Shown here piece after piece: positions 2,943 through 11,754 of a DNA stretch of 11,754 nucleotides. Under the pieces are notes generated by a model that was not told where the DNA came from, made no database searches, and worked only from the letters and a program-made list of their open reading frames with translations. This stretch comes from Lachnospiraceae bacterium (lineage in GTDB: Bacteria > Bacillota > Clostridia > Lachnospirales > Lachnospiraceae). The position numbers and the translations under genes are program-made. Each line of letters begins with the position of its first letter. The stretch's first letter is position 1. Where the stretch lies: NCBI GenBank assembly GCA_902363835.1, contig CABJBM010000053.1, forward strand, positions 1 through 11,754, read 5' to 3'.

Positions 2943-2963
2943 GTTTCCTAGCAATTAGGAAAC
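2943..2963. promoter_or_regulatory. Putative operator 1 of the PRD activator (8-5-8 inverted repeat)
   Basis: GTTTCCTA (2943-2950), spacer GCAAT, TAGGAAAC (2956-2963): a perfect palindrome. The same core, TTTCCTA-N5-TAGGAAA, recurs at 6129-6149 before the PTS genes. Its centre lies about 42 bp upstream of a -10-like hexamer, almost the same distance as at the second site. That fits an activator bound just upstream of -35. The pairing with the regulator at 4209-6128 is inferred from location. Confidence 0.75.
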
Positions 2964-2971
2964 AGATTTAC

Positions 2972-3000
2972 TTCCAAACTCTCACTGGACGGATTATAGT
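2972..3000 (+). promoter_or_regulatory. Putative activator-dependent promoter of the DUF871/regulator unit
   Basis: A -10-like TATAGT (2995-3000) is preceded at 17 bp by a poor -35 (TTCCAA, 3 of 6 consensus matches, 2972-2977). A weak -35 downstream of an operator is typical of activator-dependent promoters. The start of transcription would fall near 3007, leaving a leader of about 60 nt. Confidence 0.45.
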
Positions 3001-3011
3001 TAATATCAAAG

Positions 3012-3041
3012 AACCATCCGGCACGTAAGTACCGGCCGGTT
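3012..3041 (+). other. Leader hairpin before the DUF871 gene
   Basis: AACCATCCGG (3012-3021) can pair with CCGGCCGGTT (3032-3041), leaving a 2-nt mismatch in the middle and a 10-nt loop. It lies inside the predicted leader and 10 bp before the AAAGGGG ribosome binding site. No T-run follows. It could stabilise the message or be incidental. Confidence 0.35.
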
Positions 3042-3066
3042 AAACATTAAGAAAGGGGTTATACAT

Positions 3067-4161
3067 ATGGCAAGATTAGGTATTTCCGTTTATCCGGAAC
3101 ATTCTACTGAAGAAAAGGACATGGAATATATCAGAAAGGCAGGGAGGCTGGGATATAAGAGAATCTTCACCTGCCTTTTAAGCGTTGGGGAGAAGAGCAG
3201 GGAAGAGGTAATCGGACGGTTCCGAAGACTGGCGGATGAATCGCACGCCTGCGGTATGGAGATCATACCGGATGTGAGCCCTGCCGTATTCTCCCGACTG
3301 GGAATCTCCTATGAAGACTTATCCGTATTTCAGGAAATGCACGTGGATGGCATCCGTCTGGACGAAGGCTTTGACGGCATGAAAGAAAGTCTTATGACTT
3401 ACAATCCCCAGGGGCTTAAAGTGGAGCTTAATGCCAGCACCAAGCTGGCGTATGTGGAGAATACCATGGATTACCATCCGGATCGTGACAAGCTGATTAC
3501 CTGCCACAATTTTTATCCCCAGAAGTATACGGGATTGAGCCTGAACCATTTTAATATCTGTAATGATAAAATGAAATCACTGGGACTTAAGGTGGCTGCC
3601 TTTGTGTCCAGCAATGCGCCCGGAGCATACGGTCCATGGCCCGTGAATGAGGGACTGTGTACTTTAGAGCTGCACCGGGGCCTTCCCCTTGATTTTCAGG
3701 TGCGCCATCTCTTTGCCACCGGCATGGTAGATGATGTGCTTATTGCCAATGCTTATGCCACTGACGAAGAGCTTAAGGCCTGCGCTGCCCTTAATTCCAG
3801 CCTCCTGACTTTTGGTATCCAGTTGGAAAAGGAGCTGACCCGGAACGAACGCCAGATCCTGGATTATGAGTTCCGCCATGTGGTACGAGGGGATATAAGC
3901 GAGTACATGATCCGTTCCTCAGGCCCCAGAGTCACATTTGCAGACCGGTCCATCCCTGCTGCCAATACCAGGGATTTAAAGCCGGGCGATGTAGTTATCT
4001 TAAATGACGGTTATCCTAAATATAAGGGTGAACTGCAGGTGGTCACTAAAAACATGCCAAATGACGGCCGTAAAAATGTGATCGGCCATATTCCTGAGCA
4101 TGAGCATGTTTTGCTGGATTACGCAAAACCATGGACCGTGTTTGAATTCTGCATCCTCTGA
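3067..4161 (+). CDS. MupG-type 6-phospho-glycosidase (DUF871 TIM barrel plus cyclophilin-like domain)
   Basis: The 364-aa protein has the normal DUF871/MupG family length and is predicted cytoplasmic, with no signal peptide. The N-terminal domain (~1-245) is a TIM barrel opening with LGISVYPEHS and carrying family-like segments VDGIRLDEGFDG (93-104), LNASTK (121-126) and CHNFYPQKYTGLSLNHF (146-162). The rest (~250-364) is the small cyclophilin-like domain. The founding member, MupG of Staphylococcus aureus, hydrolyses MurNAc-6-phosphate-GlcNAc imported by a PTS. The shared theme is hydrolysis of an intracellular 6-phospho-hexosaminide. The start is supported by AAAGGGG 8 bp upstream. It is first in the unit, 47 bp before the regulator gene. 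The PTS genes downstream are of lactose/cellobiose type rather than the MurP type, so the substrate probably differs from that of MupG; the symbol is therefore withheld. Confidence 0.85.
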   Translation: MARLGISVYPEHSTEEKDMEYIRKAGRLGYKRIFTCLLSVGEKSREEVIGRFRRLADESHACGMEIIPDVSPAVFSRLGISYEDLSVFQEMHVDGIRLDEGFDGMKESLMTYNPQGLKVELNASTKLAYVENTMDYHPDRDKLITCHNFYPQKYTGLSLNHFNICNDKMKSLGLKVAAFVSSNAPGAYGPWPVNEGLCTLELHRGLPLDFQVRHLFATGMVDDVLIANAYATDEELKACAALNSSLLTFGIQLEKELTRNERQILDYEFRHVVRGDISEYMIRSSGPRVTFADRSIPAANTRDLKPGDVVILNDGYPKYKGELQVVTKNMPNDGRKNVIGHIPEHEHVLLDYAKPWTVFEFCIL

Positions 4162-4208
4162 GCAGGGGATCTTGCAGAAGAACACAGTAAGAAAAGGAGT
4201 AATGAAAC

Positions 4209-6128
4209 ATGCAGAATAAAAGACAGGTACAGCTGCTTGCCATATTATCTGAGCGGGGAGACTGGATAACCAGCCGGCGCCTGGCCGGTCTTCTGCAGGT
4301 GTCGGACCGGACCATACGTTCTGATGTGGAATCCATTAACAGTCAAATGACCCCTCCTCCCATAGAATCCAGTGTACGGCAGGGCTACCGCATCTGTGAA
4401 AAGGCCAGGATGTCGCCTCTTCCATCAAAAGAATCCCGGGGAGGGGATATTCCCCAGACTCCCGGTGCCCGGTGTGCATACATGATACAAAAGCTGTTAT
4501 TTGAGGTTAAAGAACTGAACCTCACCCTGCTTCAGAGCCAGATCTATGTCAGCGGAGCCTCCATTGACAATGACTTAAAGCGTATACGGAAGATGCTGGA
4601 ACCTTATTCCGGTTTAAAGCTGGTCCGCAATAAGGAATGCATTTCCTTAAAAGGGGATGAGGCCGGAAAACGGCGGTTTTACAGGGATCTGCTCATGGCT
4701 GAGGTACAGGAGAATTTTCTCAACTTAAACATGCTGGCCAATCTGTACAAAGGCTTTAACTTAATTGAGGTAAAGGATATATTTGTGGATGTGCTGAAGG
4801 AATACGATTATTCCATTCATGAATCCATGTTTCCCATGCTTATCCTCCACGCCGGTACCAGCATTGAGAGGATGAGCTGTGCCAACTACATCAGTATGGA
4901 AGAGGAGATGCCGGAACTGGATGATACCATTGAGTATCAGATTTCACGGGACTTTTTTGACCGCATTTCCAAACGCCTTCACATAAAGATCCATGACGGC
5001 GAAGTGGGGATGTTTGCCCTGGTTATCATGGGGAGAAAGGCCTCCAATTATACCGGAGATTTTGTGAATTTCAGCGGTAAGTGGCTCAGCACCAAGAAAC
5101 TGGTAGGCGAGGCTCTGGAGCAGATATACGCTTTGTTTGGGCTGGATTTCCGGCAGGATGGGGACCTGATCGCCGGCCTTAAGATGCATATCCACGGTCT
5201 GGTTGAGCGGGTCAGGAACCAGGTCCGGATGGAGGAGGTGTTTGTGGAAGAGATCAAGCGCAAATACCCTCTGGTCTTTGAGATGGGCATTTATGTGGTG
5301 GAATTTCTGGAAGAAAGGCTTAAGACTCCCATATCCGATGCAGAGAGCTGCTATATTGCCCTCCATCTGGGAGCCGCCAGTGAGCGCATGAAAGCAGAAA
5401 GAAAGTACCGCGCCGTAATGATCCTGCCTCACAACCAGTCTTTCTCCGACATGTGCGTGAAGAAAATTTCCGATATGTTCCGTGAGCGGATGGAAGTGGT
5501 GAAGGTATTTGGTTATTTTGAAGAGGAGGCAGTGTCTTCCATGGATCCGGACTTACTGCTCAGTACATTTCCCCTGGAGCACGGACTTAATGTGGAGACA
5601 GTCTCCATTAACCTGTTTGTGGATTCTGAGACAGAGTCCAGGATTCTCCAGGCCATTAACCGGCTGGATAAAAAGGGATTCCGGCTGGAGTTTTCCTCTC
5701 ATATCAGCAGCCTGATCCGGCGGGAACACTACCACACAGAGGTGAACTGCACCAGCCCGGAGGAAATCATCCGCATGCTGTGCTCCGGCCTGGTACAGGC
5801 CGGTGTTGTGGAGCCGGAATTCACAGATGTTGTATTAAAGAGGGAGCAGATGTCCCCAACCTCTTTTGTGAATACATTTGCCATTCCCCATGCGTTCGGC
5901 GCCTTTGCAAGGAATTCCACCATTGCAGTGGCCCAGTTGAAAAATCCTGTGAAATGGGGGGTATTTGAGGTGCGGCTGGTAATGCTGTTTGCCATCAACA
6001 AAGGGGATGCCAGGCTGATTAAGATCTTCTTTGACTGGATATCCAATATTGTAAATCAGCCTGAGGAGCTGGCAAAATTAGCGGCTCCCTGCGGATATGA
6101 GGAATTTCTTGACCGGATCATGGAGTGA
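4209..6128 (+). CDS. PRD-containing transcriptional activator with HTH, PTS EIIB-like and EIIA domains (LicR/MtlR type)
   Basis: A 639-aa multidomain regulator. Residues ~1-60 are an HTH_11 domain (LAGLLQVSDRTIRSDVESIN). A second HTH-like region spans ~90-150. PRD1 is ~170-275 with His214 (LILHAG); PRD2 is ~290-395 with His327/329 (MHIHGLVERVRNQ) and His386 (ALHLGAASER). An EIIB-like region lies at ~400-490 and an EIIA (mannitol/fructose type) at ~510-639 with the phosphorylatable His561 in FAIPHAFGAF. Such proteins bind DNA and are switched by PTS phosphorylation on PRD and EII domains, coupling transcription to substrate flux. Two oddities: the EIIB-like region has no cysteine where the phospho-site is expected (RAVMILPHNQSFSDM), and the second PRD1 histidine position reads ALVIMG. 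It has DNA-binding HTH domains rather than an RNA-binding antiterminator domain. AAGGAG at 4194-4199 supports ATG 4209. Confidence 0.9.
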   Translation: MQNKRQVQLLAILSERGDWITSRRLAGLLQVSDRTIRSDVESINSQMTPPPIESSVRQGYRICEKARMSPLPSKESRGGDIPQTPGARCAYMIQKLLFEVKELNLTLLQSQIYVSGASIDNDLKRIRKMLEPYSGLKLVRNKECISLKGDEAGKRRFYRDLLMAEVQENFLNLNMLANLYKGFNLIEVKDIFVDVLKEYDYSIHESMFPMLILHAGTSIERMSCANYISMEEEMPELDDTIEYQISRDFFDRISKRLHIKIHDGEVGMFALVIMGRKASNYTGDFVNFSGKWLSTKKLVGEALEQIYALFGLDFRQDGDLIAGLKMHIHGLVERVRNQVRMEEVFVEEIKRKYPLVFEMGIYVVEFLEERLKTPISDAESCYIALHLGAASERMKAERKYRAVMILPHNQSFSDMCVKKISDMFRERMEVVKVFGYFEEEAVSSMDPDLLLSTFPLEHGLNVETVSINLFVDSETESRILQAINRLDKKGFRLEFSSHISSLIRREHYHTEVNCTSPEEIIRMLCSGLVQAGVVEPEFTDVVLKREQMSPTSFVNTFAIPHAFGAFARNSTIAVAQLKNPVKWGVFEVRLVMLFAINKGDARLIKIFFDWISNIVNQPEELAKLAAPCGYEEFLDRIME

Positions 6129-6149
6129 ATTTCCTAAGAGCTAGGAAAT
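6129..6149. promoter_or_regulatory. Putative operator 2 of the PRD activator (8-5-8 inverted repeat)
   Basis: ATTTCCTA (6129-6136), spacer AGAGC, TAGGAAAT (6142-6149): a perfect palindrome starting immediately after the regulator's stop codon. Its core matches operator 1 while the spacers differ, so the arms look selected. It lies 30 bp upstream of the TATAAT at 6180, against 31 bp at the first site. Confidence 0.75.
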
Positions 6150-6152
6150 GCC

Positions 6153-6185
6153 TTTAAGGAAAAAACGGAATCATTGTCTTATAAT
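6153..6185 (+). promoter_or_regulatory. Putative activator-dependent promoter of the PTS unit
   Basis: TATAAT at 6180-6185 is a perfect -10 hexamer. No acceptable -35 lies 16-19 bp upstream (the region reads TTTAAGGAAAAAACGG), consistent with a need for the activator at 6129-6149. Transcription would start near 6192, giving a leader of about 87 nt before ATG 6279. Confidence 0.55.
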
Positions 6186-6211
6186 AATAATTAATTAAGG
6201 CAGCTTATGCA

Positions 6212-6246
6212 AAGATGCAGCAAACAAAACGGTTATGCTGCATTTT
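6212..6246 (+). promoter_or_regulatory. Leader hairpin with terminator-like features before the PTS genes
   Basis: AAGATGCAGCA (6212-6222) pairs along 11 positions (one G-U) with TGCTGCATTTT (6236-6246), with a 13-nt loop. The 3' arm ends in TTTT, followed by GCTTT. It sits between the predicted promoter and the AGGAGG site. It could be a weak attenuator or an mRNA-stabilising element. It also covers the start of the longer frame at 6207, which argues against that start. Confidence 0.5.
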
Positions 6247-6278
6247 GCTTTACATCAATACACGCAGGAGGCAGCAAT

Positions 6279-6617
6279 ATGTTAGAGGACTTAGAAACGA
6301 TCTGCTTTCAAATCATATCCAATGTAGGCGGCGCACGGTCCAGTTACATTGAGGCGATCCAGAAAGCAAAGCATGGGGATTTCAGCGGTGCGGCGGAATG
6401 TATAAAAGCCGGTCAGGAAATGTTTCTGGCAGGGCATGAGGTCCATTTTGAACTGATCCAGAAAGAGGCCCGGGGTGAGGTTGTGGGCAGTTCCCTAATC
6501 CTGATCCATGCGGAAGATCAGCTTATGAGCGCAGAAGGATTTAAAATCGTCGCAGAGGAGATGATAGCCAGCTATAAGAGGATTGCAGAGCTGGAGGAGA
6601 AGGTGGGGAGTAAATAA
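6279..6617 (+). CDS. PTS lactose/cellobiose-family EIIA component
   Basis: The 112-aa protein is the usual size of lactose/cellobiose EIIA, an all-helical cytoplasmic trimer that takes phosphate from HPr on a histidine and passes it to EIIB. The phospho-site is His77 in ILIHAEDQLM (family pattern HAxDxLM), with Asp80 at the usual metal-binding position. I place the start at ATG 6279 because AGGAGG lies 7 bp upstream at 6266-6271 and the protein then begins like its family (MLEDLETICFQIISNVG). The longer frame from ATG 6207 adds 24 residues unlike EIIA, lacks a ribosome binding site and begins just before a leader hairpin. It is the first gene of the PTS unit. Confidence 0.9.
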   Translation: MLEDLETICFQIISNVGGARSSYIEAIQKAKHGDFSGAAECIKAGQEMFLAGHEVHFELIQKEARGEVVGSSLILIHAEDQLMSAEGFKIVAEEMIASYKRIAELEEKVGSK

Positions 6618-6656
6618 TGGAAATAAAAAAATGCAAATAGCAAGGAGGACTTTATA

Positions 6657-6977
6657 ATGAAGCGAGTGTATTTATTTTGCAGTGCAGGAATGTCAACCAG
6701 CATGCTGGCAAGCAAGATGCAGAGCGTAGCCAACCAGCATAACCTTCCCATCGAAGTGGAGGCTTTCCCTGATGGAAAGATCGGCCAGATCATTGATGAG
6801 AAGCATCCGGATGTAATTCTTTTAGGGCCCCAGGTCAAATACCGGTATGGTGAGATTGTGGAAAAGTACGGAAGCACAGGCATCCCCATACAGGTTATTG
6901 ACCAGACGGATTACGGTATGATGAATGGTGAGAAAGTTCTTAAATCTGCCATCAAGCTTTTAAAAGCTTCCAAATAA
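6657..6977 (+). CDS. PTS lactose/cellobiose-family EIIB component
   Basis: A 106-aa cytoplasmic protein with the EIIB P-loop VYLFCSAGMSTSMLASKM; Cys8 is the phosphorylated cysteine. It also has VILLGPQVKYR (53-63), typical of cellobiose-type EIIB. It receives phosphate from EIIA and phosphorylates the sugar bound by EIIC during transport. ATG 6657 follows AAGGAGG at 8 bp. It lies 39 bp after the EIIA gene and 60 bp before the EIIC gene, so the three PTS parts are separate polypeptides in one unit. Confidence 0.93.
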   Translation: MKRVYLFCSAGMSTSMLASKMQSVANQHNLPIEVEAFPDGKIGQIIDEKHPDVILLGPQVKYRYGEIVEKYGSTGIPIQVIDQTDYGMMNGEKVLKSAIKLLKASK

Positions 6978-7037
6978 GTCAAAAAACCAGAACTTCCATT
7001 CATAGCAAAAATAATATAAAACGGGGGAATTACAATC

Positions 7038-8369
7038 ATGTTAAATAAATTAGAGTCTGTACTCATGCCTCTGGCAGAGAAAATCGGAAAGAACAAGTAT
7101 CTCATTGCAATTCGTGACGGCTTCCTGCTGTCCATGCCGCTGTTAATCGTTGGTTCCTTTTTCCTGCTTATTGCCAATTTCCCGATTCCGGGGTGGACTG
7201 ATTTCTGGGCAAAGTTCTTTGGGGAGAACTGGGATGCCTACTTCTCCAAGCCAACTGACGCCACTTTCTCAATTATGGCAGTGCTGGCAGTGGTTGGAAT
7301 CGGTTATTCTTTTTCAGAGCAGATGAAGGTGGATAAATTGTTCGGCGCTGCCGTATCACTGGTCTGCTGGTTTTTAATCATGCCTTATAAGATCCTGGTA
7401 AATGATACTGCAGTGTCCGGCATTCCTCTGGGCTGGGTTGGTTCCAAGGGAATCTTTGTAGGAATAATTGTGGCTTTTCTGTCCGTACATATCTATGCGT
7501 GGGTCAATAAAAAGGGCTGGATCATCAAGATGCCTGACGGCGTTCCTCCTACAGTGGCAAAGTCTTTCTCAGCCCTGATTCCTGCGGGAATTTCCGTGCT
7601 GGTGTTCTTCATCCTGAACATTGTCTTTGCCATGACCCCATATGACAACGCATTTAACTTTGTGTTCACCATCTTACAGACTCCGCTTCTTAAGCTGGGC
7701 AACACACTTCCGGCTATGGTAATCGCTTATATTTTCCTCCATTTCTTCTGGTTCTTTGGAGTGAACGGCGGTTCCGTGGTGGGCGCAGTGTTCAACCCCA
7801 TCCTTCAGACCTTGTCTGCCGAGAACCTGGCTGCATTCCGGGCAGGCCAGCCTCTGCCTAATATTATATCCCAGCAGTTCCAGGATCTGTTCGCCACTTT
7901 CGGCGGCTGCGGCTCCACCTTGTCACTGCTCATAGCAATGCTCTTTTTCTGCCGCTCCAAGCGCATTAAGGAGTTGGGAAAACTGGCATTTATCCCTGGT
8001 TTGTTTGGTATCAATGAGCCTATTGTGTTTGGTCTGCCCATTTTGCTGAACCCGATGATGCTTATTCCGTTCATGCTGGTGCCCACCATTAACATTGTGA
8101 TTTCCTACTTCTGCATGAGCATCGGCCTTGTTCCTCTGTGCTCAGGTGTGGCAATCCCATGGACCATGCCGGTGATCTTATCCGGATTCCTGGCAACCGG
8201 CTGGCAGGGAGCCGTGCTTCAGATGCTGCTTCTTGCACTGGGGGTATTCATCTATATGCCGTTTATCAAGATGATGGATAAACAGTACCTGGAAGACGAG
8301 ACCAGGGCAGCTGACAAACCTGATGACGATGATATTGATCTTAACGATCTTTCTTTTGATGATCTGTAA
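7038..8369 (+). CDS. PTS lactose/cellobiose-family EIIC permease
   Basis: A 443-aa membrane protein with about ten hydrophobic segments and the usual length for cellobiose-type EIIC. The family signature GINEPIVFGLPILLNPMM (324-341) is present with Glu327, the conserved substrate-contacting glutamate region. The other key motif, normally FGIHG, reads FFGVNGGSVVGA (239-250), so the histidine expected there is Asn243. This could alter sugar recognition. The C-terminus (416-443) is an acidic cytoplasmic tail. It moves and presents the sugar to EIIB for phosphorylation. The ribosome binding site is GGGGG, 10 bp upstream. The stop codon is 16 bp before the next start. Confidence 0.93.
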   Translation: MLNKLESVLMPLAEKIGKNKYLIAIRDGFLLSMPLLIVGSFFLLIANFPIPGWTDFWAKFFGENWDAYFSKPTDATFSIMAVLAVVGIGYSFSEQMKVDKLFGAAVSLVCWFLIMPYKILVNDTAVSGIPLGWVGSKGIFVGIIVAFLSVHIYAWVNKKGWIIKMPDGVPPTVAKSFSALIPAGISVLVFFILNIVFAMTPYDNAFNFVFTILQTPLLKLGNTLPAMVIAYIFLHFFWFFGVNGGSVVGAVFNPILQTLSAENLAAFRAGQPLPNIISQQFQDLFATFGGCGSTLSLLIAMLFFCRSKRIKELGKLAFIPGLFGINEPIVFGLPILLNPMMLIPFMLVPTINIVISYFCMSIGLVPLCSGVAIPWTMPVILSGFLATGWQGAVLQMLLLALGVFIYMPFIKMMDKQYLEDETRAADKPDDDDIDLNDLSFDDL

Positions 8370-8385
8370 AATGAGGGAAACAGTG

Positions 8386-8910
8386 ATGAAGCTTATTATG
8401 ATATACGACCAGATTCAGTCAGGTCTTGGAACCAAGGACGACACCATGGTTCCCCTTACAGGGAAAAAGGAGCTTATCGGGCCGGCAATCATGATGGAAC
8501 CTTTTTTAAAGCAGGTGGACGGACACGTAATGGCCTGCTTATGCTGCGGCAACGGCACATACCTTGCTGATCCGGAGGAGGTCAGCCGAAAGCTTTGTGC
8601 CATGGTAAACAAGCTGCAGCCGGATGTGGTCATGTGCGGACCGGCTTTTAATTACGCGGATTACGCCAAAATGTGCGCCAAAGTGGCCTGTGACATTAAT
8701 TCCACCACCAGTGCAAAGGCATTTGCAGCCATGTCTGCGGAAAATGCAGATACCATTGCAGCTTATAAAGATAAAGTAGCCATTGTGGAAACTCCGAAAA
8801 AGGGCGGTCTGGGCCTTAATGACGCCCTTAAGAACATGTGTGTACTGGCCAGGGCCCTGGCTGACAATGCAGACACTTCAGAGCTGATTTATGAATTCTG
8901 TTTTAAATAA
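8386..8910 (+). CDS. Short GrdB-related protein (glycine/betaine/D-proline reductase component B family), no selenocysteine
   Basis: A 174-aa cytoplasmic protein. MKLIMIYDQIQSGLGT, then GPAIMMEPFL (32-41), CLCCGNGTYL (51-60), QPDVVMCGPAFNYADYAKMC (78-97) and KVAIVETPKKGG (130-141) follow the order of the N-terminal half of GrdB-type substrate-binding subunits (HYxNQFFAGxGGE, GPxxxL, xxCGDNYF, GPAFNAGRYG). Full GrdB is about 430 aa with Sec or Cys in its C-terminal half. That half is absent and there is no in-frame TGA. Reductase partners GrdA/C/D are not in the window. Function is unknown; a redox or C-N bond role would be inference. The start at 8386 is chosen for GAGGG 8 bp upstream and the family-like N-terminus; a longer frame from 8323 overlaps the EIIC gene. 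Confidence 0.65.
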   Translation: MKLIMIYDQIQSGLGTKDDTMVPLTGKKELIGPAIMMEPFLKQVDGHVMACLCCGNGTYLADPEEVSRKLCAMVNKLQPDVVMCGPAFNYADYAKMCAKVACDINSTTSAKAFAAMSAENADTIAAYKDKVAIVETPKKGGLGLNDALKNMCVLARALADNADTSELIYEFCFK

Positions 8911-8925
8911 AAGGAGGCCTTTGCA

Positions 8926-9894
8926 ATGTGGGGTATGATAGCAACCTGGCGCATGGCCGTAGAAGGGATTACAAGGGGAGCTGAGATGCTTAAGGAAAGC
9001 GGAGACGCAGGGGATGCCATTGAGGCGGCCATCCGTCAGGTGGAAGACTTCCCTTACTATAAATCCGTAGGCTACGGCGGACTGCCAAATGAGGAAATGG
9101 AAGTGGAAATGGATGCGGCCTATATGGACGGCAGCACACTGGATATAGGAGCCGTGGCCGCTATCCGGGACTTTGCAAATCCCGTGTCCATTGCCAGGCG
9201 CTTAAGCCGGGAAAAAGTCAACAGCATGCTGGTGGCTGAGGGAGCTGAGAAGTTCGCCCACAAGGAAGGCTTTGAGCGCAAAAATATGCTGACAGACCGG
9301 GCTAAGGCGCATTACAGGAAGCGGGTCAAAGAGATGGCCGCCCAGGCGGCAGCTGAGGAGCTTAAGCCCTATTCCGGTCATGACACCGTTGGTATGGCCT
9401 GCCTGGATGGAATGGGAAAAATGGCGGCAGCTACCTCAACCAGCGGCCTATTCATGAAGAAAAAGGGCAGGGTAGGCGATTCCCCCATATCAGGTTCCGG
9501 ATTCTATGCTGACAGCAGGAAAGGAGCCGCCAGCGCCACCGGCCTGGGAGAGGATCTGATGAAAGGCTGCATTTCTTATGAGGCCGTCCGCCTTATGGGA
9601 GAGGGAATCCATCCTCAGGAAGCCTGTGAGACGGCAGTGAACCGGCTGGACCGGGAACTTCGGGAACGCCGGGGCGAAGCAGGTGACATATCCATCATTG
9701 CCATGAATCCTAAGGGAGAGTGGGGGGCTGCCACAAATATAGAGGGATTTTCTTTTGCAGTGGTTACAGAGGAACTGGAACCAACAGTATATCTGGTAAC
9801 CCGGGAGGAGAAAGGCCGCTGCACCTATGAAAAAGCTTCTGAAGAATGGATGGAACATTACATGAAGACGCGCATGGCGCCCATAGAGGAATAA
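8926..9894 (+). CDS. N4-(beta-N-acetylglucosaminyl)-L-asparaginase family (glycosylasparaginase / isoaspartyl peptidase, Ntn hydrolase)
   Basis: A 322-aa protein with the family's autocleavage and active-site motif GHDTVGMACLD (151-161). Thr154 should be the new N-terminal nucleophile after cleavage between Asp153 and Thr154. It also has ATSTSG (169-174) and GRVGDSPISGSGFYAD (181-196), the substrate-pocket signature of glycosylasparaginases. These enzymes split the GlcNAc-Asn bond of glycoasparagines, giving aspartate and the 1-amino sugar, and need Asn with free alpha groups. No signal peptide is seen, so it would act in the cytoplasm, unlike lysosomal or secreted homologues. The start follows a strong AAAGGAGG. 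It lies 15 bp after the GrdB-related gene and 3 bp before the dipeptidase gene. An isoaspartyl-peptidase activity is possible. Confidence 0.9.
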   Translation: MWGMIATWRMAVEGITRGAEMLKESGDAGDAIEAAIRQVEDFPYYKSVGYGGLPNEEMEVEMDAAYMDGSTLDIGAVAAIRDFANPVSIARRLSREKVNSMLVAEGAEKFAHKEGFERKNMLTDRAKAHYRKRVKEMAAQAAAEELKPYSGHDTVGMACLDGMGKMAAATSTSGLFMKKKGRVGDSPISGSGFYADSRKGAASATGLGEDLMKGCISYEAVRLMGEGIHPQEACETAVNRLDRELRERRGEAGDISIIAMNPKGEWGAATNIEGFSFAVVTEELEPTVYLVTREEKGRCTYEKASEEWMEHYMKTRMAPIEE

Positions 9895-9897
9895 AAT

Positions 9898-11055
9898 ATG
9901 GGATATGGAAATATGGAACATGAATCAGATAAGAAGATACTGGACTGCGTGGACCGGTTAAAGGACCGGTTCATCTCCAGTGTCCTGGAGCTGGTACGCA
10001 TTGACAGCGTGGAAAGGGAGGCCTGTGAGGGCGCTCCCTTTGGCCCGGGAGTAAAGCAGGCTTTGGAATGTGCCCTGGATATCAGCGGACAACTGGGGTT
10101 TGACACCGTGAACCTGGATCATTACATGGGGTATGCCCAGTACGGCAGGGGAGAGGACTATGTCTGCGCCATCGGTCATGTGGATGTGGTTCCTCCGGGA
10201 GAAGGCTGGAAGCAGCCGCCTTTTAACGGTTATATGGAAAACGGAGTCATTTACAGCAGGGGAGTGCTGGACAATAAGGGACCTGTCATGGCATGTCTCT
10301 ATGGCCTGGCCGCCATTAAGGAGGCAGGACTTGTTCTTAAGAATCCGGTGCGCATCATCTTTGGATGCGACGAGGAATCCGGATTTGAGGATCTAAAGTA
10401 TTATCTTTCAAAGGAGAGACCCCCTCTTTATGGATTCACACCGGACTGCAAGTATCCGGTGGTATACAGCGAACGGGGCAGGGCTGTGGTGAGGATTACC
10501 GGCAGCCTGGAGCAGTTGGAATCATTTTTTGATTTTGTAAACAAATATTTTATGGGAGCCAGGAATACAGGCGACCGGTTGGGCATTGACTTCTGCCACA
10601 AGGAATATGGTATGATGGAAATGCGGGGATATAAGCTGAGTGTGGTTCAGGACAGTCCCCGGGACGAAAAACACGCGGCCTTTGATGTGACCCTAAGCTA
10701 TCCGGGAGGCGTCACCATTGATGAAATCATGAAGCGCATTGGGGATAAAGCCGGGGCAGAGGAGCTTAAGGCCCAACTCATACAAAATTTTGACCCGGTA
10801 GTATTTCCAAAAGACACGCCCATGGTTAAAGCCATGCAGGAAAGCTATGAACTGGTCACAGGGCTGGACGGTACCCCTGTAACCACCACAGGCGGCACTT
10901 ATGCCAAGGCAATGCCGGGCATTGTTCCCTTTGGCCCAAGCTTCCCGGGGCAAAAAGGCATCAGCCACAATCCCAATGAGTGGATGAGTGTGGAGGACTT
11001 AATGACCAATGCAAAGATCTATGCCCTGGCCCTGTACCGTTTGGGACAATTATAA
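9898..11055 (+). CDS. Sapep/PepV-type M20 metal-dependent dipeptidase
   Basis: A 385-aa cytoplasmic peptidase of the M20 family. Metal ligands are visible in order: His94 in IGHVDVVPPGEGW, Asp125 in SRGVLDNKGPVMA, Glu159/Glu160 in FGCDEESGFEDL (general base and ligand), Asp183 in TPDCKYP and His357 in KGISHNPNEWMS. PepV and Sapep hydrolyse dipeptides and beta-Ala-dipeptides with Mn or Zn. Those proteins are about 465 aa; this one is roughly 80 residues shorter, apparently in the lid domain between Asp183 and His357, which could change its specificity. The start follows AGAGGA at about 7 bp. It is the last gene of the unit and could trim residues flanking a glycosylated Asn. Confidence 0.9.
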   Translation: MGYGNMEHESDKKILDCVDRLKDRFISSVLELVRIDSVEREACEGAPFGPGVKQALECALDISGQLGFDTVNLDHYMGYAQYGRGEDYVCAIGHVDVVPPGEGWKQPPFNGYMENGVIYSRGVLDNKGPVMACLYGLAAIKEAGLVLKNPVRIIFGCDEESGFEDLKYYLSKERPPLYGFTPDCKYPVVYSERGRAVVRITGSLEQLESFFDFVNKYFMGARNTGDRLGIDFCHKEYGMMEMRGYKLSVVQDSPRDEKHAAFDVTLSYPGGVTIDEIMKRIGDKAGAEELKAQLIQNFDPVVFPKDTPMVKAMQESYELVTGLDGTPVTTTGGTYAKAMPGIVPFGPSFPGQKGISHNPNEWMSVEDLMTNAKIYALALYRLGQL

Positions 11056-11226: not shown

Positions 11227-11696
11227 TTACTTGATTATGGGATAACGAATAATTGTTTTCAATTTATCGGGAGATGTTTTGCGCGGGTCGCCTAAATACA
11301 ATTCATGGTGTTTACGTTTCTCTGAAAGGTCAAGTCTGTATCCCGAATCAGTTATAAAGGTTTTTAAGACATGAATCGTTGCAGGTTCGCTGTCATAAGA
11401 GCCGGTGTGCATGATTTGAGCACAAAGTCCCTCATTAAAAACTTCAAGCCTCGCAATAGACGAATCCAGGTTTGGCTTCTTTTTGGCCAGACTCTTTTTA
11501 GCTGCTTCAAAAACTTCCGGCGTAACAAACTCAGGCATCCGTATCATGGAAGTCCAGCGAAACGAGTTCTTTTCTGTTATGCCGATTTCAAAATCGCCTG
11601 TATCCGTTGACCATAAACCTTCCAATGGAGGAACAACAAAATCATAATACCCTTTGGGTTGATTGCCGCCCATTTTGCTCATTTTTATAGTATAGG
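11227..11696 (-). pseudogene. GyrI-like small-molecule-binding-domain protein, interrupted by a group II intron (3' part)
   Basis: Read on the minus strand, the frame runs from the intron boundary to TAA at 11227-11229, giving 155 codons plus two bases of a split codon. It begins YTIKMSKMGG and includes GYYDFVVPPLEGLW, FRWTSMIRMPEFVT, NEGLCAQIMHTGSYDSEPAT and a C-terminal HHELYLGDPRKTSPDKLKTI block. This is the GyrI-like/effector-binding domain family (AraC effector-binding fold), whose stand-alone members are about 200-210 aa and begin about 50 residues earlier. The missing N-terminus should lie on the far side of the intron. The intron is in the opposite orientation, so it cannot be spliced from this gene's own transcript. 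Members are thought to bind hydrophobic or drug-like ligands; the substrate here is unknown. Confidence 0.8.
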
Positions 11697-11754
11697 GTGC
11701 GCCCAGCAAAGGGCTTGAAGTTCGGTGGGTGAAAGTCCCACGCTGTAAGGTATA
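11697..11754 (+). mobile_element. 5' end of a bacterial group II intron (partial)
   Basis: The sequence from 11697 opens with GTGCG, the group II 5' splice-site consensus (GUGYG). Next comes the hairpin GCCC-AGCAAA-GGGC (11701-11714), then GTGGG (11725-11729) pairing with CCCAC (11737-11741) around TGAAAGT, and CTGTAAGG. The GGTGGGTGAAAGTCCCAC segment is characteristic of domain I of many clostridial group II introns. The coding homology of the GyrI-like gene on the other strand stops exactly at this boundary. The rest, including the reverse transcriptase/maturase, lies beyond the window. Confidence 0.85.

Follow-up and report, generated by a model that had tools for sequence, protein, structure and literature searches.

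A lactose/cellobiose-type phosphotransferase operon with a glycosylasparaginase in a Lachnospiraceae genome, probably serving the use of glycoasparagines

Gene content of the locus

The window, as we call the full stretch of 11,754 nucleotides analysed here (positions 1-11,754 of contig CABJBM010000053.1 of a Lachnospiraceae bacterium, assembly GCA_902363835.1), carries eight genes, all on the plus strand between 3067 and 11,055, in which a lactose/cellobiose-type phosphotransferase system (PTS) stands next to a glycosylasparaginase (AGA), and which probably serve the use of glycoasparagines. A first-pass annotation had described eight genes in two units sharing one operator motif, and all eight genes, each with at least one Pfam family above cut-off, and both operator copies are indeed present.

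The first unit begins with a gene of glycoside hydrolase family 170 (GH170, DUF871/MupG-like; 3067-4161), encoding a putative 6-phospho-beta-glycosidase that has both family domains (MupG_N, 9.7e-89; MupG_C, 1.6e-34), finds its best PDB match in 1x7f and falls in the lac-PTS clade of our tree, and it continues with a PRD-type transcriptional regulator (4209-6128; HTH_11, Mga, PRD and EIIA-2 domains by Pfam). The second unit encodes the lactose/cellobiose-family components EIIA (6279-6617; PF02255, 2.8e-30), EIIB (6657-6977; PF02302, 2.7e-17) and EIIC (7038-8369; PF02378, 7e-68), followed by a stand-alone GrdB-like domain of the "no Se" kind (8386-8910; NF041545, 243 bits against a cut-off of 175), a glycosylasparaginase-type Ntn hydrolase (8926-9894; PF01112/Asparaginase_2, 1.8e-67; Elizabethkingia glycosylasparaginase 1p4k, 7.7e-57) and a dipeptidase of the M20 Sapep/PepV type (9898-11,055; TIGR01887, 338 bits against a cut-off of 208; PepV 1lfw). 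For EIIA, the start at 6279 appears more likely than the listed open reading frame (ORF) start at 6207, because a good ribosome site lies there. The AGA is probably cytoplasmic, since its ORF starts directly at the catalytic domain. No MurQ, MFS permease, alpha-L-fucosidase or ROK kinase was found by Pfam among the ten window ORFs scanned. Gene by gene, the locus of Lacrimispora celerecrescens (L009) is 89-96% identical to the window, which suggests that the DNA comes from a Lacrimispora-like bacterium.

Conservation of the operon and its operator

When the GrdB-like protein was used as a query against genome contigs in a single scan, 28 loci (L001-L028) were obtained, and in all of them the GrdB-like gene directly follows EIIC. 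An AGA gene lies within the fetched stretch in 26 of the 28, a recurrent linkage that supports the earlier claim of a connection between AGA, peptidases and PTS. The remaining two genomes have AGA elsewhere: in G713, the genome of L024, it belongs to a second operon (L246), and in G714, the genome of L027, it lies on another contig (L247), which resembles the remainder of the same operon. The usual gene order is PRD, an RDD membrane protein in some loci, EIIA, EIIB, EIIC, GrdB-like, AGA, M20, CutC and YitT; GH170 precedes PRD in the Enterocloster/Lacrimispora group, whereas elsewhere it mostly lies downstream, and two M42 aminopeptidase genes are extra in L026 and L028. A second operon type, PRD-EIIA-AGA-EIIC-CutC-EIIB, was found in five Bacillota genomes (L127-L131), without GH170, GrdB-like and M20 genes, so PTS and AGA can stand alone; no EIIC was called in L129, and in L131 CutC lies 4.4 kb away on the other strand. 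In the genome of L012 unrelated ORFs lie between the GH170-PRD genes and the PTS-AGA genes (L142), which gives the impression that an insertion has split the operon.

The operator is the inverted repeat TTTCCTA-N5-TAGGAAA, of which the window has two exact copies, TTTCCTAGCAATTAGGAAA at 2944-2962, upstream of GH170 and PRD, and TTTCCTAAGAGCTAGGAAA at 6130-6148, upstream of the PTS-AGA unit. In the window alone the statistics are modest, as the three matches with up to three mismatches were equalled in 9 of 200 shuffles, and we accept the palindrome as real despite this because the loci of relatives decide the matter. With at most one mismatch it precedes GH170, PRD or EIIA in 19 of the 28 GrdB-like loci, in L015 the spacer of the copy is 4 bases long, and no copy within one mismatch was found in L003, L007, L013, L020, L021, L024, L026 and L027, some of which are contig-cut. 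The exact palindrome is present in 15 of the 20 genomes searched (out of the 28), at 22 sites, every one of which lies inside the operon by coordinate comparison, while the reversed control pattern gave one site each in 2 of the 20. GH170 is linked to the operon in the lineage of the window, as had been proposed, standing under the same operator, and the shared palindrome is probably the site from which the PRD regulator governs both units.

The glycosylasparaginase and its partners

In the PDB comparison the window AGA was nearest to the Elizabethkingia glycosylasparaginase (EmAGA; 196 bits, 7.7e-57), against 129 bits (2.3e-36) at best for isoaspartyl peptidases. Its Trp8, Thr154, Arg182 and Asp185 match Trp11, Thr152, Arg180 and Asp183 of EmAGA, residues which docking and mutagenesis link to substrate binding and activity (PMC13204146; this and the other articles are cited from the parts of them available to us). 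The features that mark a glycosylasparaginase, a nucleophile Thr after Asp together with Trp11, Arg180, Asp183, Gly204 and Gly206 (residues as given in the same source), have their counterparts in this PF01112 protein in an HDT motif at Thr154, in Trp8, Arg182 and Asp185, and in TGLGE from 205. The substrate-binding Trp is missing in the more distant PF01112 proteins L136 and L137. EmAGA has no activity on GlcNAc-peptides (GlcNAc, N-acetylglucosamine; PMC13204146), which fits a need for trimming peptidases.

PF01112 is rare, with 11 of the 299 genomes in a sample of the phylum Bacillota, and five of these contexts are the type-2 loci above. In the order of genome G414, which is probably Lactobacillales to judge from its alf-2-like loci, it gave 50 matches in 47 of 246 genomes, and all 50 loci were fetched: an EIIC (same strand, up to 6 kb from AGA) is present in 27 and a ROK kinase (blastp with one ROK protein as reference) in 10, the two never occur together, and 13 loci lack both, an exclusion with a Fisher p of 1.1e-4 in which kinship is not corrected for. 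Kinase-type loci that were checked have an alpha-L-fucosidase in L230 and L241 and an MFS gene in L230, as in alf-2 of Lactobacillus casei, and a GH38 alpha-mannosidase in L211, and these neighbours tie the AGA family to the breakdown of N-glycans. When the PTS-AGA loci were compared by blastp with one ROK and two NagK-like proteins, up to 6 kb from AGA in the order sample and over the entire fetched stretch elsewhere, no GlcNAc kinase came up. A sugK mutant of L. casei does not grow on glycoasparagine, SugK being proposed to phosphorylate the released GlcNAc (PMC6960285), so that the PTS would seem to take the place of the kinase, and on the simplest reading of the exclusion it is the PTS that provides the phosphate. 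In addition, AsnA2 of L. casei takes 6'-fucosylated GlcNAc-Asn in vitro (PMC6960285), so a related enzyme can accommodate a substituted O6.

A Lys pair in the AGA motif FMKK was considered as a phosphate site and rejected, as it is also found in most enzymes of the ROK-kinase type. Adjoining AGA in L228 (6390-8384, minus strand) is a 664-residue protein whose GHL6 domain is that of a hypothetical glycosyl hydrolase, possibly a further N-glycan enzyme, and ORFs of 667 residues adjoin AGA in L229 and L245.

The GrdB-like protein has 174 residues and covers positions 3-160 of the 347 in the Pfam model, so it is not a full-length protein B, and its best family is NF041545 (GrdB_like_no_Se). Its predicted structure has a mean predicted local distance difference test (pLDDT) score of 94, and in a Foldseek search of the PDB with this model no match reached E ≤ 0.001, those obtained being of a general nucleotide-fold or receiver-like kind. 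The same bacterial family repeatedly has longer GrdB-like proteins as well (L044-L070; ORFs of roughly 350-400 residues), which score under the cut-off of NF041545 and of which a single genome often has several.

CutC is an orphan TIM-barrel family with a human member, and three arrangements link it to AGA. It (PF03932) accompanies AGA in 23 of the 26 AGA loci in L001-L028 and in all five type-2 loci, in four of them within 1.5 kb, and in 8 of the 50 loci from the order of G414 it is no more than 4 kb away from AGA, in varying arrangements and against a background of at least 216 of 246 genomes there. The CutC-bearing loci are L001-L008, L010-L015, L017-L023, L025 and L028; L127-L131; and L206, L209, L210, L221, L223, L224, L225 and L244. 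This suggests a role of CutC in GlcNAc-Asn metabolism.

A residue of EIIC that follows the glycosylasparaginase

The window EIIC aligns with the chitobiose transporter 3qnq over 422 residues (388 bits) and, as a member of the lac/cel EIIC family with TIGR00410 above cut-off, it is ChbC-like; its Asn243, however, stands at the position of 3qnq His250, so the His expected of a ChbC-like EIIC is missing. We take this His to contact the sugar in ChbC and to matter for function, although a literature search brought up no paper that names the residue. Asn is present at position 243 in 60 of the 61 EIIC rows up to 6 kb from AGA (window included), while His is present in 13 of 13 rows up to 4 kb from GH170 and not near AGA; loci that were fetched twice (L142, L143) account for two of the 61 and one of the 13, and EIICs under 380 residues were dropped, including that of L009, which appears as two ORFs. 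The sole His exception near AGA, in L208, adjoins GH170, and the same locus also has an Asn-type EIIC. Four EIICs near neither gene have His, His, Asn and Ser, the Asn row being the contig-cut operon L027. In the EIIC tree the type-2 clade is separated from the main clade at 94/83, just under the level that was starred.

Genome G713 has two paralogous PTS operons and so offers a natural comparison: L246 has AGA and an Asn-type EIIC (appearing as two ORFs), its visible 14.5 kb being free of GH170, and L024 has GH170, a His-type EIIC and a GrdB-like gene and no AGA.

Distribution and phylogeny of GH170

The tree of 46 GH170 proteins is split with full support (100/100) into a mostly MurQ/MurP-linked clade, 11 of whose 14 rows were so labelled by blast, and a lac-PTS clade of 32 rows, in which the window protein lies, and not in the MurQ/MurP-linked clade expected of a MupG orthologue. 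Three rows labelled "Mur" fall inside the lac-PTS clade: L150 has a true MurQ nearby, the label of L148 comes from an RpiR-type regulator, and that of L152 from a neighbouring second GH170 cluster. The GH170 proteins of AGA operons form two separate clades (nine rows with the window, and six rows mixed with others), in addition to L208. The genome of the nearest relative has a separate locus (L146) with MurQ, a MurP-like EIIBC and a GH170 of the MurQ/MurP clade.

The expected co-occurrence of GH170, lac-family EIIC and AGA in gene neighbourhoods was found in part, since AGA with a lac-type EIIC is recurrent, and GH170 is missing from the type-2 loci (0 of 5) and lies within 8 kb of only 1 of the 27 PTS-AGA loci in the order of G414. 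All 27 PTS-AGA genomes of that order do have a GH170, against a background of 191 in 246, so genome-wide presence of GH170 was rejected as a discriminator there. Four of the five type-2 genomes have no GH170, and that of the fifth (L157) belongs to the MurQ/MurP clade. GH170 is also absent from the genomes of L018, L010 and L003 (metagenome-assembled or small drafts, among them G169 and G030), and altogether 7 of the 56 carrier genomes are without it. A NagK-like gene stands beside GH170, with no AGA, in 4 of the 29 stretches L138-L166, which were mostly fetched around GH170 genes; two of the four were scanned and matched NF046058, both below its cut-off, and there were no NagK-like genes in the AGA loci searched.

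Proposed route and its alternatives

We favour, with moderate confidence and on the strength of sequence comparisons, the reading that this is a dedicated PTS operon for glycoasparagines, that is, GlcNAc-Asn and short GlcNAc-Asn peptides, in which GH170 would be a lineage-specific extension. An Asn-linked GlcNAc substrate is well supported by the AGA residues, the recurrent peptidases and the alf-2-like N-glycan loci, and the chitobiosyl part of the substrate is weaker. The pathway for chitobiosyl-Asn suggested by the first-pass annotation is supported as far as a PTS operon for an Asn-linked GlcNAc compound is concerned, and is not supported in making import of chitobiosyl-Asn with obligatory GH170 action its core.

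What we observed are the genes present, their conserved linkage, the confinement of the operator to the operon, the mutual exclusion of PTS and kinase in one order and the EIIC signature; the substrate, phosphorylation site, order of steps and regulation are inferred. GlcNAc-Asn stubs would be left from animal or dietary N-glycoproteins after the action of endoglycosidases and proteases, and the lac/cel-type enzyme II would import GlcNAc-Asn or a short glycopeptide while phosphorylating GlcNAc at O6. The M20 peptidase, in some relatives together with M42, would trim the attached residues and free the alpha groups, after which the cytoplasmic AGA would cut the Asn side-chain amide, giving aspartate and, via an unstable 1-amino sugar, GlcNAc 6-phosphate (GlcNAc-6P) for the usual NagA/NagB route. 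GH170, under the same operator, may cleave a 6-phospho-hexosaminide, so that second beta-GlcNAc substrates (chitobiosyl-Asn or chitobiose) could be used too. The roles of the GrdB-like and CutC proteins can be put forward only as proposals: it is conceivable, although rather doubtful, that, with the PTS phosphorylating the glyco-amino acid and AGA acting on GlcNAc-6P-Asn, CutC or the GrdB-like protein is the missing enzyme for the released 1-amino sugar, and if this were true, CutC would have a metabolic role unrelated to copper.

Several points weigh against a PTS dedicated to glycoasparagines. Its basis is linkage, the exclusion of PTS and kinase, and one EIIC residue. The window EIIC scores above the cut-off of the cellobiose model TIGR00359 as well, the Asn label, with three changes on the EIIC tree, has few independent origins, some placements in that tree are unstarred, and several long branches are flagged. 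The contig of L246 starts at the PRD gene, so that an upstream GH170 could be missed. GlcNAc kinases may sit elsewhere in the genomes, and no AGA residue divides the 27 PTS-linked from the 10 kinase-linked sequences, so that the enzyme gives no hint of having adapted to a substrate with a phosphate. Finally, of 22 assessable loci, 16 have GH170 in the operon or close to it (L001, L002, L004, L005, L006, L008, L009, L011, L012, L015, L020, L021, L023, L025, L028 and L027/L247, as against L013, L014, L017, L018, L019 and L022), coming from two clades, and GH170 is present in 49 of the 56 PTS-AGA carrier genomes searched (9/10 and 40/46), compared with 31 of 299 in the phylum sample, a frequency which suggests that a phospho-glycosidase is really needed in many of them. 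In the count of 22, L027/L247 is taken as one, L012 is included though about 17 kb of unrelated ORFs lie between its GH170-PRD and PTS genes, and L003, L007, L010 and L016 (contig-limited), L024 (no AGA) and L026 (Enterococcus type, with GH170 9 kb off) are left out.

These GH170 counts also speak for chitobiosyl-Asn as the main substrate. In that scheme it would enter as the 6'-phosphate, GH170 would divide it into GlcNAc-6P and GlcNAc-Asn, and AGA would then release aspartate and free GlcNAc. In the lineage of the window the first gene to follow the shared operator is GH170, and in Lacticaseibacillus paracasei the GH170 protein ChbE is required for growth on chitobiose, which is taken up by a cellobiose-type PTS (PMC12791066). 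Nevertheless, we hold this scheme to be unlikely, as an obligatory GH170 disagrees with its absence from all type-2 operons, from four of those five genomes and from the genomes of L018, L010 and L003, within the seven carriers without it. The free-GlcNAc end step, moreover, finds no ROK/NagK-like kinase in PTS-AGA loci, the NagK-like genes beside GH170 being confined to the four stretches without AGA, and the EIIC has Asn where the EIICs found with GH170 alone have His.

An ordinary cellobiose or chitobiose PTS operon, with AGA and M20 as incidental nitrogen-scavenging neighbours, would agree with the TIGR00359 match, with the closeness of EIIC to ChbC 3qnq and with the lac-PTS clade of the GH170, but it is quite improbable, because PF01112 is so rare in Bacillota and AGA yet adjoins PTS genes in several architectures, and because EIIC residue 243 tracks AGA. 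Catabolism of beta-aspartyl (isoaspartyl) peptides, with the Asparaginase_2 protein as an isoaspartyl peptidase and M20 finishing the dipeptides, is suggested by the shared Pfam family and by the only NCBIfam match of the AGA, a beta-aspartyl-peptidase model, which stays far under its cut-off (126 against 567 bits); the closer relation to glycosylasparaginase, the substrate-binding Trp that L136 and L137 lack and the linkage to a sugar PTS make this very improbable. Recycling of peptidoglycan (MurNAc-GlcNAc or a muropeptide; MurNAc, N-acetylmuramic acid) by a MupG-type enzyme seems the most improbable of all, and the earlier remark that a MurNAc substrate is unlikely holds, for although the founding GH170, MupG, is a 6-phospho-N-acetylmuramidase (PMC6262408) and the lac-PTS-clade GH170 L150 lies near a true MurQ, the window has no MurQ, its GH170 is split off from the mostly MurQ/MurP-linked clade, and the nearest relative keeps a separate MurQ locus with a GH170 of the other clade.

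Comparison with known systems

Our comparisons with MupG of Staphylococcus aureus, ChbE and ChbC of L. paracasei and AsnA2 of L. casei rest on publications and not on alignments. The alf-2 system of L. casei for fucosyl-GlcNAc-Asn resembles the window in having the glycosylasparaginase AsnA2 beside an M20 PepV, a pair that the window also has, and in the cytoplasmic split of GlcNAc-Asn to aspartate and GlcNAc, PepV not being essential there (PMC6960285). According to the same source alf-2 has an MFS permease, an alpha-fucosidase and a ROK kinase, none of which is in the window, while the window, unlike alf-2 as described there, has a lac/cel-type PTS and no kinase, GH170, a PRD regulator and a GrdB-like protein. 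In the available part of that article PTS is abbreviated in a legend to gene maps of other loci, without a functional claim. In Lactobacillus sakei, LSA1690 (cellobiose IIC), LSA1692 (GntR) and LSA1693 (asnA2) form a run in an expression table (PMC3146418).

The chb genes of L. paracasei for N,N'-diacetylchitobiose share with the window a cellobiose-type PTS and a GH170 that is needed for growth on the disaccharide, but the gene list as available has a DUF3284 accessory protein and no glycosylasparaginase or M20 (PMC12791066). S. aureus mupG-murQ-murP-murR shares GH170 and the PTS-coupled logic of a 6-phospho-disaccharide, but it has MurQ and a MurNAc substrate, whereas the window GH170 is outside the MurQ/MurP-linked clade of our tree, in which S. 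aureus MupG itself is not included (PMC6262408). CELO2 of Bacillus coagulans (celR-celB-celA-celX-celC) likewise has a DUF871 gene within a cellobiose-type PTS operon, and, unlike the window, its five genes as listed include no glycosylasparaginase, peptidase or GrdB-like protein (PMC6271610).

In the open-licence literature, subscription journals being mostly outside the search, we found no description of a PTS for a glycoasparagine. The earlier remark that no described pathway of this kind was known agrees with this as regards the combination, which appears to be new, and not as regards its parts, as both pepV-asnA2 (PMC6960285) and GH170 with a PTS (PMC12791066) are known. With a PTS, the cell would meet the cost of import and of sugar phosphorylation in a single step and gain both carbon and nitrogen, and the repeated position of AGA next to PTS genes in several Bacillota groups would be accounted for. 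The reading also brings a testable marker, EIIC Asn versus His, and an operon-specific operator, and it would give GrdB-like NF041545 and CutC, two families that are poorly understood, a definite place in metabolism.

Remaining features of the window

The window gave no Rfam match at the gathering score. At 1-1056 lies a collagen-like protein with Gly-Xaa-Yaa repeats, open at the window start and with a non-repeat C-terminal part, which is followed at 1057-2940 by about 1.9 kb without a recognised gene, where two small ORFs were tested and had no Pfam match. Downstream of the operon, at 11,227-11,709 on the minus strand, there is a small protein with a GyrI-like ligand-binding domain.

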